Source of the DNA: Lactobacillaceae bacterium
Lineage (GTDB): Bacteria; Bacillota; Bacilli; Lactobacillales; Lactobacillaceae
DNA length: 40,576 nucleotides
Assembly (NCBI GenBank): GCA_031289615.1
Contig: JAITPD010000022.1
Span: 1-40,576 of the forward strand
Reading direction: 5' to 3'
Of the stretch, positions 1-39,090 are shown piece by piece (position 1 is the stretch's first letter; each line of letters begins with the position of its first letter). Below the pieces are notes generated by a model. It saw nothing but the letters and a program-made list of their open reading frames with translations, was not told the DNA's origin and did no database searches. Position numbers and translations under genes: made by a program.

Positions 1-193
1 ATTCGAACCACCTTCGTTACTAAGTCGCCCAGCTGTATGACACAGCTGCCCAACTAAGTACTGCGGATCGTGTTTTGGTAAGCGATAAATCGCTAACAAA
101 ACGCATAATGAATCGTGCAAGGCCAATCCGAAACGCAAAGAATCTTTAGCGAAGCTGATCAACCAAAGCCAATTATTATTACATAACTAGCAA
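1..193 (+). repeat. Diverged or partial copy A of the intergenic structured element
   Basis: The right half matches the other copies in the window: the AATCTTTAGCGAAGCTGATC block (141-160) is followed by TTACATAACTAGC at 179-191, the same terminal repeat that closes the copy at 38641-39056. The left half is diverged but still hairpin-rich. CAGCTGT/ACAGCTG can pair around a 5-nt loop (about 30-48), and GTTTTG...CAAAAC forms a long stem (about 71-102). The left end lies outside the window or is lost. It occupies the space downstream of dnaN. I see no gene in it. Confidence 0.6.
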
Positions 194-204
194 AATACAT
201 TAAA

Positions 205-1335
205 TTAATACGTCCGAACTGGTGTAATTAATTGAATAAAGTTCGTTTCGTTATTTGTTGGCACCAAAGTAAATGGATCCAGCGCCGTTTTGAAGCCAAT
301 TTGAATTTGTTCATCACCAAATGACTTCAATGCATCACGCATATAATCAGGGTTGAACGAAATTGTTAACTCATCTCCAGCAGTTTCAGCAGCGAAAATT
401 TCTTCTTCAATTTTACCAACTTCAGGTGAATTAGAAGAAATCATTGACTTGGCATCTGAAACCATGAATTGAATCACATTTGAACGTCCTTCATGAGAAA
501 GCAACGCCGCACGGTCAATCGTTTGCAACAATTCACGCGCATTAATTGTGATAGTTGTACGCTTTTCAGTTGGAATCAATCGTGACGCATCTGGGTAATT
601 TCCTTCCAACAAACGTGAATAGAAAATTGTATTTGGTCCCAATTGGAAGATCACTTGATTTGAAGCCACACGAATTTCAACGGTTTCAACTTCTTCCAAC
701 ATTCCTTGCAATTGAAGTAATGATGCTCCGGGAATAATAATATCAGCATTGACATCACTTGTTCCAAAAGCCAAAGTCCGTTGTGCCAAACGATGACGAT
801 CAGTGGCAACAGCAGTCAAATTTCCACCAGCCAAAATAAAATGCACACCAGTCAAAATCGGTTGACTTAGTTGTTTTGAAACTGCAATAACAGTTTGCCC
901 GATCACTTCAATTAAAGTTGATGCAGGCAAAACTAAATTATTTTGAATATCAACTTCTGGCAAGTGTGGGTAATTATTCACATCTTGTCCATGAATATCG
1001 AATTCTGCTGAACCAGAGGTGATCTTGGCTTGTAATCCAGTGGTGTTTGCCAACGTAACTTCTTCACCAGGCAAACGCTTCACGATGTTTGAGAAGAATG
1101 TAGCTGGCAACGTAATTCCGCCAACTTCAGTAACTACTAATTTAGCAGTGTCATCTGTTGTTGGGATTGTTGTTTCAATTGAAATATCTGTATCTGAACC
1201 TGTCAAAGTCAATCCATTATCAGTCAATACCAACTTGATATTGGTCAGGATTGGCATGGCAGTTCGAGACGAAATTGCTCGATTGACATTATTAAGTGCT
1301 TTGATGAAAGCTTGACGATTAATTGTAAATTGCAT
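205..1335 (-). CDS. dnaN: DNA polymerase III beta subunit (sliding clamp)
   Basis: The 376-residue product has the usual length and the three-domain architecture of bacterial beta clamps. It starts MQFTINRQAF and ends with the typical LITPVRTY tail (compare L-P-[VM]-R-[TL] C-termini). The clamp encircles DNA and tethers replicative polymerase. The start is supported by GAGGAG 8 nt upstream of ATG. It is the second gene of a leftward dnaA-dnaN pair, separated from dnaA by 203 bp that hold DnaA boxes and the predicted unwinding region. Identification is secure by sequence and synteny. Confidence 0.98.
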   Translation of the reverse strand: MQFTINRQAFIKALNNVNRAISSRTAMPILTNIKLVLTDNGLTLTGSDTDISIETTIPTTDDTAKLVVTEVGGITLPATFFSNIVKRLPGEEVTLANTTGLQAKITSGSAEFDIHGQDVNNYPHLPEVDIQNNLVLPASTLIEVIGQTVIAVSKQLSQPILTGVHFILAGGNLTAVATDRHRLAQRTLAFGTSDVNADIIIPGASLLQLQGMLEEVETVEIRVASNQVIFQLGPNTIFYSRLLEGNYPDASRLIPTEKRTTITINARELLQTIDRAALLSHEGRSNVIQFMVSDAKSMISSNSPEVGKIEEEIFAAETAGDELTISFNPDYMRDALKSFGDEQIQIGFKTALDPFTLVPTNNETNFIQLITPVRTY

Positions 1336-7717: not shown

Positions 7718-7784
7718 TTCGTTGTCCATCCTATGAATATGATTTTATTCATTGTAGCAAGGAGTTGTGAACAAATTATAATAT

Positions 7785-8044
7785 TGTGCTAGTTATGAAA
7801 CATCTTGATCATTTCAAACCACCACGCTTTAAATAATGACCGAGTGCATCGTATAGTGTTGAACAGCGAAGCGATTCTGTCGTCGGATGATAGTTCCTGC
7901 TGAATCTAGGCGAACCTTTTCACGCGTGCTTTAGCGCCGTGAAATTGGCAAATTATTTTGCCATTCGCCGTGACTCGTGTAGGGCAATCCGAACGTAAAG
8001 AATCTTTAGCGAAGCTGATCAACTTAGCACAATATTACACAATA
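7785..8044 (+). repeat. Structured intergenic element, copy B (palindromic module missing)
   Basis: The left terminal repeat GTGCTAGTTATG (7786-7797) is identical to that of the 38641 copy. The right terminus is decayed (ATTACACAATAAAA). The core 7868-8021 contains the GCGAAGCGATTCTGTCGTCGG start, the TTTCACG/CGTGAAA stem, the TGGCAAATTATTTTGCCA hairpin and the AGAATCTTTAGCGAAGCTGA end. Only the right arm of the palindromic module remains (TCAAACCACCACGC about 7815-7829), so the module was lost here. It fills the 375-bp gap between the oxidoreductase and lepB. Confidence 0.88.
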
Positions 8045-21621: not shown

Positions 21622-21684
21622 GTTTTGCCTTTCTGATAGTTTGTTGGATAAAATGATCAATTAGCGTAAGTAATAATATTGCTT

Positions 21685-21844
21685 ATCAGCTTCGCTAAAG
21701 ATTCTTTACGTTCGTATTTACCCTGCACGATTCATGCTGAATGGCAAAATAATTTGCCAATTTCACGGCGCTAAAGCACGCGTGAAAAGGTTCGGCTAGA
21801 TTCGGCAAGGGCTGGTCATCCGACGACAGAATCGCTTCGCTGAT
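21685..21844 (-). repeat. Structured intergenic element, copy C (core only)
   Basis: The 160-bp core runs from ATCAGCTTCGCTAAAGATTC to GCGCTGAT-like end GCTTCGCTGAT, in the reverse orientation to copies A, B and E. It contains the TGGCAAAATAATTTGCCA hairpin (about 21741-21758) and TTTCACG/CGTGAAA stem. The palindromic module and the terminal repeats seen in the 38641 copy are absent. It lies between the divergent YczE-like and dedA genes and fills most of that 375-bp gap. Confidence 0.88.
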
Positions 21845-21996
21845 CCAGCAAACTAAAGTATTAGTATGGGAAAAAGTTTAATCATTTTAGCAACGCATTA
21901 CTCTATAAATTGTTATATAAAATGAGTCTTTGTTTTAAGCTTTCTTTGGTACAGTGTACAATAAATAGAGAGAGTAAAAAAGGGCTGTGGAGAAAT

Positions 21997-24873: not shown

Positions 24874-25252
24874 GTGTTGTTTATGTGCTTTGTTGATCAG
24901 CTTCGTTAAAGATTCTTTACGTTCGGATGGGTCTGCACGAGTCATGTCGAATGGCAAAATAATTTGCCAATTTCACGGCGCTAAAGCACGCGTGAAAAGT
25001 TTCGCCTATATTCGGCAAGGGCCGGTCATCCGACGACAGAATCGCTTCGCTGATTGCCCAAGAACAAACACCTGGTTCATTTTTATTTAAAGCGTGGTGG
25101 TTTGAAATGATGATAGTAGGTGGAAACGCGAGGTAGCGGCACCAATTCGACTTAATTTCGGTCTACCGAAATTAAAAGTCGAATGGGACCGTGTCGCCAC
25201 TTACTATCATTATTGAAAGACCACCACGCAATTGAAAAATGAACTAGGCGTT
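24874..25252 (-). repeat. Structured intergenic element, copy D (core plus palindromic module)
   Basis: This copy is in reverse orientation. The core is 24895-25054 and includes the TGGCAAAATAATTTGCCA and TTTCACG/CGTGAAA hairpins. A 138-bp palindromic module follows at 25092-25229: the GCGTGGTGGTTTGAAATGAT left arm is complementary to the right arm near 25205-25229, and the apical hairpin is TTAATTTCGG/CCGAAATTAA. Decayed terminal repeats are recognisable at 24874-24885 and 25241-25252 (ATGAACTAGGCG compared with CATAACTAGCAC). Together with the copy at 38641 it defines the two-module structure. Confidence 0.88.
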
Positions 25253-25274
25253 TCTAGTCAGCACTACATTTTAA

Positions 25275-32178: not shown

Positions 32179-32186
32179 GTATTGTT

Positions 32187-32333
32187 GAAACGTCATGATT
32201 AATTTCATGGCGTTTTTATTATGTTACAAATGACGATTATTTTGTAATATGTTAAAAAAACGTTTATTCGGACGTTATTTAGTAGACTAAAATATTTTAT
32301 GTAAACGTTTTACTTTTAAATTTTAAGGAGATG
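32187..32333 (+). repeat. Duplicated promoter region, copy 1
   Basis: This ~147-bp block recurs at 34349-34495 with only scattered differences. It holds the terminator, an inverted repeat TTACAAA-N10-TTTGTAA (32224-32247), an AACGTTTA/TAAACGTT pair bracketing the segment about 32259-32309, and a TAAAAT -10-like box near 32288-32293. It is the probable promoter of the metalloprotease gene. The repeat and pairings suggest a shared regulator of both transcripts. Confidence 0.85.
32189..32217 (+). terminator. Terminator of the acyP/AI-2E-family operon
   Basis: AACGTCATGA and TTCATGGCGTT pair, followed by TTTTATT. The same hairpin, with altered bases (AGCGGCATGA/TTCATGGCGCT), recurs at 34351-34379 as part of a duplicated upstream region. 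Confidence 0.85.
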
Positions 32334-32341
32334 ATAGTTTT

Positions 32342-33710
32342 ATGAAAGTTCGTCAAATAGTGCTTTGGTTAAGCGCCTTTGCATTCGCAATGGTTTTTTT
32401 CTACTGAAGCATTTGCGGATAATTCAGCGACGGTTACTTATCAAGCACATATTGAAGAGACTGGTTGGCAGGGAACTGTTAAGAATGATCAAGTGGCTGG
32501 CACAACTGGAAAAAGGTTGCGAATTGAGGCATTTAAAATTAATTTGCAAAACGATTCTGGTAAAACAGGCACATTGCAGTATCGCGCGCATGTTGAGAAC
32601 ATTGGATGGCAAAATTGGGTTGGAGCTGGACAAGTTGCAGGTACAACTGGGAGAAGTTTGCGAGTAGAAGCTTTTCAAATTCATCTTACTGGACAGTTAG
32701 CGCAATATTATTATGTGCAATATCGTGCGCATGTCGAAAATATTGGTTGGCAAGATTGGACAAGCAATGGTGGCACTGCTGGAACAGTTGGTCAAGGGTT
32801 ACGAGTAGAGGCGTTCCAGATTAATATCGTACCCAAAAACTGGTGGAAGGTTGTATCAACATCAACGTATAGTTATAATAAATCTGGCTATCAATTCTAT
32901 GCACTTAGACAAATTGGGCGTGCAGATGGATTATACAGTTCCCCATGGATGACAAGCGCAGACGCGACTGTTGAAAATCATGATGCGCAGGGATATAACG
33001 GAACGATTGTGTATGCAGATAAGGAAGCTGTAGTTAAGGATCCTGCCGGTGGAAATCACGCTGTTGTGCACATTAACTTGAATGGTAAATGGTCTTGGAT
33101 TGATAAGGGTGGCTTGAGCTGGGACACAAATGCTACAGCTACAACAACTGATGACCATTATCCAATGTATCAAGGTAATTCGTTGAATGCGAATAACCAA
33201 ATTGTTTATAAGGCTGATGGTACGGCATACTCAGATTTGATTGATAAAGCGGCCAATGATTGGAATGCCAAACTTGGTCGAATCGTCTTTGTAAAGGCTG
33301 GGTCAGATTTAAGCAAAGTTAATTTGAAGATATCTGATTCACAAGATGGATTAAATGGTAATGTAGCAATTACTTGGTATACTGTCGGTAAAATGGAGCT
33401 CAATACCTCATACTTTGGTAAAAGCTTTACAAATGCTCAGGTAAACCAAGGAATCATTGAACATGAGATGGGACACGCGTTAGGAATTGATCATACTGGT
33501 CGTGATGGACAGACTTGGTCATGGTCAAATCCGCAAGACGCCATGTGGTCAAGTTCTGCACCTAACAATGTTCAAAGACTTACAACTGCTGATATAAATG
33601 CTGTTAAATTGGGCATTAATTTGGGCCTTGCAAGTAATACAGCATATCCATATGTAAATAAAGCTAGTGACGGTGATGATTTTGTAGCTGTTACCACGGT
33701 ATCAAAGTAG
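32342..33710 (+). pseudogene. Secreted ChW-repeat zinc metalloprotease, frameshifted in the signal peptide
   Basis: ATG 32342 follows AAGGAGATG and encodes a signal peptide (MKVRQIVLWLSAFAFAMV). A seven-T run (32394-32400) shifts the frame, so translation stops at TGA 32405-32407. With one T less, the frame continues as FSTEAFADNS, giving a normal AFA/D cleavage site. The mature part holds three ChW repeats of about 45 residues (each with GW and GxxLR(I/V)EAF), then a linker and a metzincin-like protease domain with HEMGHALGIDH at 33462-33494. It is secreted and likely binds the wall. The state may be phase-variable, a true mutation or a sequence error. Confidence 0.85.
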
Positions 33711-33725
33711 GAGGGGATTAATAAA

Positions 33726-34307
33726 ATGACTAGTGATAAGAAATTTTTAAGTTTGATTTTGATTAGTACGATTGCCCTAACGGCGTTTGGTGGACGAATT
33801 ACGTCTAATGTATATGCGGACAATAATCCTGTTGCTTCAGATTCCGTAACTGGCTTCACAGGAGTAGGGCCAATGTCTGATACTGATCCAAATTCACCAT
33901 TAGGGTATTTTGTAAATGGTCGACTAGTTAAGCCAGTTTCGAATACTGAAAAAGATGAATTTAATCAAGGATGGGTTTATGAAAATGGCGAATTTGTTGA
34001 TCCAAACACGTTAATAGCAGATGGCCCAGGATCGAACATGATAAGGATCGATCCTACCACACCCACTAAAACGCCAGCAACACCGAACCAACAAAATAAT
34101 CCAAGCACGACTGCAAGTCAAAGTGCAGCACCAACGACGGCAACTCTAGCTTCTGGAAGCACAACTGTAACCAAGCAAGCTACAGACGGAAAGACTCTAT
34201 TGCCTGCAACCGATGCTACTTCTAACTTTGGAATTACTGCATTGGTTTTATCAGCAACAGCAGGAATCTTTGGATTATTTGGTTCATTGTTAAAGCGCAA
34301 CAAGTAA
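33726..34307 (+). CDS. Secreted protein with LPATD-type wall-anchor signal, paralogue 1
   Basis: The 193-residue protein has a signal peptide (cleavage after VYA, about residue 33), a proline/threonine/serine-rich stalk (about 113-155) and a C-terminal sorting-signal layout: LPATDATSN, then a hydrophobic stretch and KRNK tail. The LPXTG glycine is missing (LPAT-D). The conserved middle part includes PLGYFVNGRLVKPV and a WVYENGEFV motif. No family is recognised. It starts 16 bp after the metalloprotease stop and its ribosome site AGGAGGGG overlaps that stop, so the two are co-transcribed. Confidence 0.82.
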   Translation: MTSDKKFLSLILISTIALTAFGGRITSNVYADNNPVASDSVTGFTGVGPMSDTDPNSPLGYFVNGRLVKPVSNTEKDEFNQGWVYENGEFVDPNTLIADGPGSNMIRIDPTTPTKTPATPNQQNNPSTTASQSAAPTTATLASGSTTVTKQATDGKTLLPATDATSNFGITALVLSATAGIFGLFGSLLKRNK

Positions 34308-34348
34308 TAAAAATTTTAATACGCTGATATTTAACAGCTAAAGAAAAT

Positions 34349-34495
34349 GAAGCGGCATGATTAACTTCATGGCGCTTTTATTATGTTACAAATGACAATT
34401 ATTTTGTAATATGTTAAAAAAATGTTTATTCAGGCTTCTTTTTCTGGACTAAAATATTTTATATAAACGTTTTACTTTTAAATTTTAGGAAGATT
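34349..34495 (+). repeat. Duplicated promoter region, copy 2
   Basis: This is the second copy of the block at 32187-32333, including the hairpin terminator for the first cassette and the TTACAAA-N10-TTTGTAA inverted repeat (34386-34409). Most differences fall outside these motifs. It is the probable promoter of the second LPATD gene. Confidence 0.85.
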
Positions 34496-34501
34496 AATAA
34501 A

Positions 34502-35092
34502 ATGACTAGTAACAAGAAAGTTTTAAGTTTAGTTTTGTTTAGTACACTTGTATTTATGGAGTTTGGCGGAGGGATTACATCTAATGTACATGCTGACGAT
34601 AATCCTGTTGCTACAGATTTAACACCTGATGCACCGGAATGGGTTACTGATGTTTATCCAAATTACGGATATACAGGTGTCAGGCCAATCTCTGATACTG
34701 ATCTAAATGCTCCCTTGTGGTTTTATGTAGATGGAAAACCTGTTAAACCAGTTACAGATCCTCAAAATTGGGTTTATGTTAATCACAAATTTGTTGAAAC
34801 AAAAACAGGATCAGGAACTACCACACCAACGAAGACAACTGGATCAGAAACTAATACGCCAGCGACACAAAATCAACAGGGCAATCCAAGCACGACTACA
34901 ATCCAAAGTGTTGCACCTACAATCGCAACACCAGCTTCTGGAAGCACAGATGCAACTAAGCAAGCTACAGACAGCAAAGCACTGTTGCCAGCTACAGATG
35001 CTACTTCTAACTTTGAAATTACAGCATTGGTTTTGTCAGCAACTGCCCTAATATTTGGACTGTTTGGGTATTTGTTAAAGCGCAACCAGTAA
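34502..35092 (+). CDS. Secreted protein with LPATD-type wall-anchor signal, paralogue 2
   Basis: The 196-residue protein is a tandem paralogue of the one at 33726, matching at the signal peptide (MTSNKKVLSLVLFSTLV), the DTDLNAPLWFYVDGKPVKPV segment, the Thr/Pro-rich stalk, and the C-terminal LPATDATSNFEITALVLSA tail followed by KRNQ. It also lacks the glycine of LPXTG. It has its own copy of the promoter but no protease gene before it, so the duplicate cassette seems to have lost the protease. AGGAAG precedes ATG. Confidence 0.82.
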   Translation: MTSNKKVLSLVLFSTLVFMEFGGGITSNVHADDNPVATDLTPDAPEWVTDVYPNYGYTGVRPISDTDLNAPLWFYVDGKPVKPVTDPQNWVYVNHKFVETKTGSGTTTPTKTTGSETNTPATQNQQGNPSTTTIQSVAPTIATPASGSTDATKQATDSKALLPATDATSNFEITALVLSATALIFGLFGYLLKRNQ

Positions 35093-35129
35093 TGAAAATT
35101 TAAATATGCTGATATTTCCAGCTAAAGAA

Positions 35130-38592: not shown

Positions 38593-38627
38593 AAGGTATT
38601 GAGTTTTATGACTTGATGCCTTTTTAT
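38593..38627 (+). terminator. Terminator of the 37240 permease gene
   Basis: AAGGTATTGAGT can pair with ACTTGATGCCTT, including G-T pairs, and runs into TTTTATT. It abuts the left end of repeat copy E. Confidence 0.75.
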
Positions 38628-38640
38628 TACATAGCGTATT

Positions 38641-39056
38641 GTGCTAGTTATGATACATCTTGGTAATTTTTCACTGGCGTGGTGATTTGAGATGATGATA
38701 GTAAGTGGCGACACGGTCCCATTCGAATACAAATTTCGTTTCACGAAATTTAGTCGAATTGGTGCCGCTACCTCGCTCAATCACCTACTATCATCATCTC
38801 AAATCACCACGCTTTAAATAAAATGACCAAGATGTTCAGAAAGATATTGTCCTTTGCTTGATCAGCGTAGTGATTCTGTCGTCGGATGTAATTTCCTGCC
38901 GAATCGAGGTGTACTATTTCACTAACACCAGGCTCCAACGGTTAGTGAAATTGGTGAATTATTTCGCCTTACATCTCGATTCGTGTAGGAAAATCCGAAC
39001 GTAAAGAATCTTTAGCGAAGCTGATCAGGCAAAATTCAATATTACATAACTAGCAC
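38641..39056 (+). repeat. Structured intergenic element, copy E (full length, with terminal inverted repeats)
   Basis: GTGCTAGTTATG (38641-38652) is the exact inverse of CATAACTAGCAC (39045-39056). Between them lie a palindromic module (38677-38812), a linker and the core (38860-39026) whose ends GATCAGC/GCTGATC pair. Inner stems are TTTCACTAAC/GTTAGTGAAA and GGTGAA/TTCGCC, where copies B-D have TTTCACG/CGTGAAA and GGCAAA/TTTGCC. The layout is that of a non-autonomous miniature transposable element with a conserved fold. It codes for no protein. It fills the 507-bp gap before the esterase gene. Confidence 0.9.
38677..38812. repeat. Palindromic module within copy E
   Basis: GCGTGGTGATTTGAGATGAT at the left is the complement of ATCATCTCAAATCACCACGC at the right. 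ATTCGA/TCGAAT and AAATTTCGT/ACGAAATTT pair inside. Between the arms, GGCGACACGGTCCC and GGTGCCGCTACCTCGC do not pair well but are identical in copy D (25092-25229). Confidence 0.9.
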
Positions 39057-39090
39057 ACCGCATTACATAAAATCTGGGGAGGATATTACA

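Follow-up and report, generated by a model that had tools for sequence, protein, structure and literature searches.

Multi-hairpin intergenic elements of one Lactobacillaceae genus, probably MITE-like and with constrained folded cores

A family of folded elements is present in well over 100 copies in the genome of a Lactobacillaceae bacterium, and five of these copies lie in the window analysed here (the whole of contig JAITPD010000022.1, 40,576 nucleotides). The family is probably a MITE-like one of multi-hairpin elements, moved in trans by a putative transposase, with cores that are constrained, possibly as RNA. A preliminary description had proposed a miniature transposable element, possibly with a second role as an RNA or DNA structure, and this is the reading that best survives, given the copy number, terminal repeats, excess of direct repeats, covariation and conserved loops. 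The elements would thus be genus-restricted, non-autonomous, non-coding and interspersed, each unit being bounded by a terminal inverted repeat predicted to close a multi-branch fold and comprising two hairpin domains, which in this genome are A and B. An inserted MITE would in general be expected to decay; here, in many copies of a single genome, the ends decay while the folded cores persist, and the relatives carry the same unpaired motifs on different stems. Since the relatives keep the shape while the letters change, the folded shape itself may do something in the cell, as these comparisons suggest. The family therefore offers a testable case in which a selfish repeat may have become, or may carry, a functional fold, as well as a natural collection in which to study how long the arms of a hairpin remain matched during sequence turnover.

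The window copy, its modules and the copies in the genome

The window is the entire contig C23 of the draft genome G000 (2,010,465 bases in 65 contigs). The most complete of its copies is a full element of 428 bp on the plus strand, which contains both modules, likely extends from 38634 to 39061 (GCG...CGC), and has an amino-acid permease gene on one side and an alpha/beta-hydrolase gene on the other. Its inverted ends, described earlier as 12 bp long, are real and perfect and one base longer: the 13-bp left repeat occupies 38640-38652 on the plus strand, and the right one, 39045-39057 on the minus strand, is 100% complementary to it. Just outside, the putative target-site duplication ATTACATA, read from the sequence and recovered by the flank scan, stands at 38626-38633 and again at 39062-39069, both on the plus strand. 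The eight letters of ATTACATA are also found within the right arm (39042-39049), and the duplication of this copy alone is for that reason weaker than it looks.

The two separate structured modules of the preliminary description are both real, and their arms can be located in this copy. Module A (38655-38835, plus strand) is a long hairpin with an asymmetric internal loop, formed by outer arms at 38655-38670 and 38820-38835 and inner arms at 38677-38707 and 38782-38812 (31 nt, 97%). Its core, on which signature counts and covariation were based, consists of a 5' side, GGCGACACGGTCCCATT (38707-38723, plus), and a 3' side, TTGGTGCCGCTACCTCGC (38759-38776, plus). Module B (38844-39042, plus strand) is a branched hairpin with two terminal hairpins and conserved internal loops; its outer arms lie at 38844-38866 and 39020-39042, and the 3' signature used for the genome-wide pattern count, AAAGAATCTTTAGCGAAGCTGATCA, lies at 39003-39027 (plus). 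The copy is predicted to fold into a three-way junction, closed by the terminal repeats and with A and B as two arms; the predicted energy of 38641-39056 is -201.7 kcal/mol (z -21.3) on the plus strand and -184.5 kcal/mol (z -17.2) on the minus strand.

All five copies noted in the window are present, and the states ascribed to two of them hold. On the plus strand, the first (about 1-201) is the 3' part of a module B with a nested module C (about 10-108), the copy being cut by the contig start, and the second (about 7783-8037), described as the copy at 7785 with a single end, retains its left end, a remnant of A and module B at 7859-8021. On the minus strand, the third (21683-21851) is module B alone, and the fourth (about 24880-25265, profile match 24894-25228), described as the copy at 24874 with decayed ends, has A and B between ends that are indeed decayed. 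Elsewhere in the window, at 32186-35117, the genes at 33726-34307 and 34502-35092 and the DNA preceding them resemble a diverged tandem duplication, pieces of which are 81-88% identical; a gene with ChW repeats adjoins the pair, which matched no Pfam family above the cut-off (one weak MGC-24 match).

Genome-wide, pattern counts gave 180 matches (95 and 85 on the two strands) to the 25-nt B signature with up to three mismatches, 115 (68 and 47) to the A 5' signature with up to one, and 64 and 44 to the A 3' signature with up to two, with no control match in any of the three (for B, the control was the reversed pattern). The terminal-repeat signature, with up to three mismatches, gave 100 (48 and 52; control 3 and 1). 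BLAST of the unit against its own genome returned at least 76 matches, and 40 of 245 first-look candidates were scored. At least ten contigs, including that of the window, carry the B signature 74-137 from the first base, at a few recurring distances (C1, C2, C12, C19, C34, C37, C39, C46, C57 and window 1-205, the starts of C1, C12 and the window having been read). The draft assembly thus seems to break inside the element, so that the count may fall short of the real number of copies. Contig C39 also has exactly the length of the window, 40,576 bases, with different element positions, probably by coincidence.

A census of architecture, made by profile search of 337,956 bases of this genome (about 338 kb), resolved 151 groups. 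Most were A-B units (57), B alone (38), A alone (20) or A-B with an insert, C (9), followed by a B end (7), B with C (6), A with a B start (5), C with a B end (3), A with a B end (2) and four arrangements that occur once each, two of them with an inverted piece. A precedes B in the same orientation in 75 of the 77 groups that have A together with a B or C piece, the other two containing an inverted piece. Modules A and B are thus also found apart, and further structured modules are nested inside them: in 12 of the 20 A-alone cases a structured insert, D, follows CTACCTCGCTT, with B following in the four that were read through, and three cases (one read through) have an insert, E, within D. Inserts C (L003, L017, L029), D (L151, L174, L180) and E (L151) occupy fixed points inside B, A and D, respectively.

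Conserved folds and cores across the genus

Of 28 genomes that represent the genus, this one included, 7 contain the A 5' signature, and a control pattern matched in 2 of the 28, once each. Besides the 115 matches of this genome, there were 45 in G022, nine in G011, four each in G007 and G008, three in G006 and two in G005; those in G005 and G006 have one mismatch each, and all five loci, when read, proved to be elements. Three lineages were compared, namely the own genome G000, G022, and a third lineage comprising G005-G008 and G011. With a covariance model of the A core, matches were obtained in 5 of 397 genomes sampled from the family, each belonging to this genus, and in 1 of 395 sampled from the order, the own genome, so that no other genus was matched in these two overlapping samples, which were searched under strict filters with nine candidates per genome scored among the matches listed. 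The same search missed the carriers G005 and G008, and may miss other weak relatives.

In the third lineage, where units measure about 0.6 kb, A is followed by a central hairpin, and this in turn by an A-like hairpin in inverted orientation, by some other hairpin, or by one that has a B-like loop; this loop, CGGAGCGAT / ATCTTTGTCGGAG, resembles by eye the own-genome GAAGCGAT / ATCTTTAGCGAAG. In G022, copies occur in tail-to-tail pairs (L061, L063, L064, L078, L082, L090 and L147), with a spacer of 77-221 bp in six of them, L147 having been judged by eye. Many G022 copies, again by eye and uncounted, adjoin gene ends and terminator-like hairpins. To the right of the A hairpin in G022, a short stem covaries by eye (AACC/GGTT, GGCT/AGCC, GACC/GGTC) around the fixed loop CAGTCGCTTTAGCTCC. 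A pseudoknot beside that hairpin is possible; its first stem covaries by eye, and its second does not do so clearly.

The fold is kept where the letters have changed. For module B, in an alignment of 42 of the 96 own copies with the structure drawn on one of the aligned sequences, 91.1% of cells were paired, 18 of 52 pairs had changed on both sides, and the covariation score was 0.151 as against 0.086 in shuffled alignments, none of 500 shuffles scoring as high. For the A core, compared in 33 selected copies of the three lineages, 99.6% of cells were paired and 6 of 14 pairs had changed on both sides, a number reached by 2 of 500 shuffles; the score was 0.322 as against 0.122, again with none of 500 shuffles as high, and the number of further pair types (10, compared with 11.4 when shuffled) was not above the shuffles. 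The inner base pairs of the A core vary from copy to copy, being CGG/CCG, GAG/CTC or GGG/CCC. In G022, the A arms of about 40 bp are near-perfectly matched within most of 22 two-armed copies (L128 is an exception) and unlike between copies, and at a site shared by G007 (L293) and G011 (L318) the arms of the second hairpin differ, each being matched to itself around the same loops. The loop motifs persist across the three lineages while the arms turn over.

Constraint within the genome was assessed as identity to the own consensus in 47 plain A-B copies, of which 41-47 were scored per segment. Mean identity was 0.62 and 0.60 at the ends, 0.71 in the A-B link, 0.92 in the A arms and 0.43 in the left flank, compared with 0.990 for the A core and 0.973 for the B core, so that the link, inside the same units, has diverged far more than the cores. 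Where the ends have decayed furthest, in one third of the copies, they were no more alike than the flank (0.43 in both), and the cores still stood at 0.985; end decay and core identity were not correlated (rho -0.19, P 0.21, n=44). These values carry the caveat that copies were found via their modules, whereby decayed cores are under-sampled, and that ends may be lost by deletion. Selection on the fold, or repeated gene conversion between copies, would either of them keep the cores alike.

Insertion, movement and the folding strand

The copies, described from the window as all intergenic, are so throughout the sample: 17 of the 151 element groups were too close to the end of their stretch, and none of the other 134, each flanked by 400 bp or more on either side, lies inside a spanning open reading frame of at least 120 codons. 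In the 125 groups with a gene called on each side, the flanking genes are co-directional in 98, convergent in 19 and divergent in 8.

Direct repeats were sought in the flanks of 66 A-B copies. A wide first scan, with the expectation taken from mismatched flanks, gave a small excess, with scores of at least 8 in 17 of 66 copies (10.5 expected) and of at least 9 in 6 (2.4 expected). A narrow scan just outside the ends, placed after inspection of the best cases of the wide one, found exact repeats of at least 8 bp in 8 of 66 copies as against 0.93 expected, and of at least 9 bp in 6 as against 0.40. The best are of 14 bp (C2:6415), 10 bp (C8:5613 and C18:33398), 9 bp (C33:1954) and 8 bp (the window copy); clear duplications are a minority, no repeat of at least 8 bp standing outside the ends of the other 58 copies. 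The comparison of occupied with empty sites proposed in the preliminary description was achieved in part: two third-lineage loci could be compared, and the relatives have remnants or short unmatched stretches there, with no clean empty site. At an orthologous site in G006 (L279) and G007 (L298), about 275 bp, the second half of the element, are gone from one of the two near relatives. One derivative in the own genome, of 69 bp, keeps little besides the ends (C30:41113-41181, match coordinates).

An autonomous element sharing the ends was looked for among the terminal-repeat matches. Of the 100 matches, 32 were fetched (in 20 regions) and 29 examined; these proved to be element copies (A or B), deletion derivatives and a few chance-like matches, and no gene-bearing unit or transposon was present among them, in a draft assembly that breaks in repeats. 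The units read, of about 0.4-0.7 kb, are filled by hairpins and have no room for a transposase. Reverse transcriptase (RVT_1) was found in none of the seven carrier genomes and in 3 of 21 non-carriers, and a Y1 (RAYT-type) transposase (Y1_Tnp) in one carrier, G005; the carriers are drafts, and G008 is 66% complete. Retro-transposition is argued against by the former result and a REP/RAYT system by the latter, within these drafts; REP-type movement needs the Y1 transposase. Carriage by plasmids or phages was likewise rejected, as the element had no match in plasmids, part of one third-lineage locus had none in phages, and three element patterns had no exact match in viral contigs.

The terminal repeats, the duplicated targets, the 69-bp derivative and the lack of RVT_1 in the carriers favour movement as DNA. 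Spread would then be the work of a transposase that acts in trans on the terminal repeat and makes a staggered cut, whereby about 8-14 bp of target would be duplicated; that it would act in trans follows from units too full to hold a transposase and from carriers without a reverse transcriptase. After insertion, selection on a folded strand would keep the cores, and this strand would more probably be RNA than DNA, since end-decayed copies keep near-intact cores and the wobble-type mismatches in the A arms of the two relatives fall mostly on one strand.

The wobble evidence was gathered as isolated wobble-type mismatches in distinct contexts, which are not fully independent of each other. In the A arms there were 24 A.C and 2 G.U contexts in the third lineage (P 1e-5, 17 copies) and 15 and 4 in G022 (P 0.019, 22 copies); the own genome, with 83 and 72 in 73 copies, showed no significant difference (raw counts 196 and 75). 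Own B contexts, A.C as against G.U, numbered 29 and 25 in the inner arms and 58 and 61 in the outer ones. In one alignment of own B there were 75 G.U and 26 A.C cases, 43 of the 75 coming from three columns, and a fixed-stem count gave 83 A.C and 76 G.U for own A and 121 and 244 for own B, with 96 of the 244 in one helix. As to folding energy, the minus strand gives the more stable fold of A in 37 of 46 own copies, 16 of 18 of the third lineage and 23 of 24 of G022 (two of the 24 truncated), and the plus strand gives that of B (34 of 46 copies in one lineage, 5 of 5 in another). For whole own units the better strand is the minus one in 36 of 47 cases; the window copy has the opposite, plus-strand preference. 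The preferences of A and B would fit RNAs read outward from the centre of the unit. Sigma-70-like promoters showed no excess in the centres, scoring 8.25 against 8.55 when shuffled in G022 (six spacers, each in both directions) and 7.64 and 7.59 against 7.87 in the third lineage (39 stretches, not all of them element centres). We infer the RNA step rather than assert it, because the centres are without promoter excess and strand-biased mutation could mimic the asymmetry.

Several other accounts have to be weighed against constrained cores in a DNA-borne MITE-like element. A DNA foldback element without RNA function, whose hairpins would be a by-product of movement, whose arms would be matched by template-switch (quasi-palindrome) correction and whose loops would be transposase binding sites, is possible, though less likely than not. 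Arms that are near-perfect within most G022 copies and widely different between them, differently matched arms at one orthologous site of two relatives, and the balanced wobble contexts of the own genome are all as such an element would have them. The lean of A-arm wobble to one strand in both relatives speaks against it, however, as do the opposite strand preferences of A and B and the intact cores of end-less copies, which are presumably no longer mobile. The two asymmetries would instead accord with two separate structured RNAs per element, directed outward from the centre, A on the minus strand and B, or an inverted second A, on the plus strand, and in several units of G022 and the third lineage a B-like hairpin or an inverted A does stand opposite A. 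This arrangement is nevertheless rather unlikely, given centres without promoter excess, A and B modules that nearly abut in the own genome and leave little room for a promoter, and the mutational bias already mentioned. Doubtful to a similar degree is its furthest extension, in which the family would represent mobile structured-RNA genes of one genus, with two outward hairpin RNAs per unit, fixed internal-loop motifs binding a common cellular partner, well over 100 copies kept working in one genome, and stems free to change or swap.

Kinship with established systems is far less probable than any of these. Hairpins with fixed unpaired features, and the frequent abutment of G022 and third-lineage copies on hairpins like intrinsic terminators (by eye, uncounted), recall REP/RAYT elements, integron attC sites or retro-elements of the group II intron type; the reverse-transcriptase and Y1 results for the carriers, the presence of terminal repeats and target duplications, the dispersal of the copies (for attC) and the absence of any Rfam intron match make a relative of these very improbable. 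Membership of a described Gram-positive repeat family (BOX, RUP, bcr1 or similar) would suit a small, intergenic, modular and tightly folded repeat, and is equally remote. Rfam returned no match for the window at the gathering threshold, and five for 11 loci at E up to 1, all of them microRNA-precursor models far under their cut-offs, such as long hairpins can give. The covariance model was also silent beyond the genus in its overlapping, strictly filtered samples, and the plasmid, phage (third-lineage query) and viral-contig (three patterns) searches were empty. The family thus goes as unrecognised by Rfam, over the window and the 11 loci, as it did by the preliminary description, and no title or abstract among the matches listed in the open-licence PMC literature describes it.

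Comparison with known repeat families

Structured interspersed repeats occur in other bacteria, such as bcr1 and similar repeats of the Bacillus cereus group, which are smaller and show paired changes. The present family shares with bcr1 its dispersal and structure, and is set apart from it, going by description, by size and by the genus in which it is found. A further likeness is offered by the repetitive hairpin-forming and double-hairpin elements of mitochondria, which, as described in PMC2800124, are intergenic, possibly mobile and composed of one to three hairpins; by that description these are much smaller than the hairpins of the present family, with which they share an intergenic position and possible mobility.

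The nearest in kind are the BOX elements of Streptococcus pneumoniae and S. suis, which are presented in PMC3049150 as modular, many-copy and intergenic repeats whose modules may be absent or repeated, and which are taken to be mobile and non-autonomous, with a strong predicted fold if transcribed. Both families are thus intergenic, many-copy, modular and strongly folding. BOX modules, those of 115 and 133 nt being called comparatively large, are by the same description mostly smaller, whereas the modules of the present family are whole hairpin domains with others nested within them; its terminal repeats also close a multi-branch fold and its loop motifs outlast the arms, unlike BOX as described there.

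Three marks of a MITE were found, namely terminal inverted repeats, target-site duplication, which is clear in the minority of the copies, and, in the units read, the absence of a transposase. MITEs such as RUP, Correia/NEMIS and ERIC, in part as described in PMC3049150, share with the family their terminal inverted repeats, target duplication, shortness, base pairing and non-coding nature. The family differs from them in that no parent insertion sequence was found among the ends read, and in that its cores are far better conserved than its ends. From BOX, its nearest counterpart in kind, it is set apart, going by description, by its nested hairpin modules, its fold-closing ends and loop motifs which outlast their stems.
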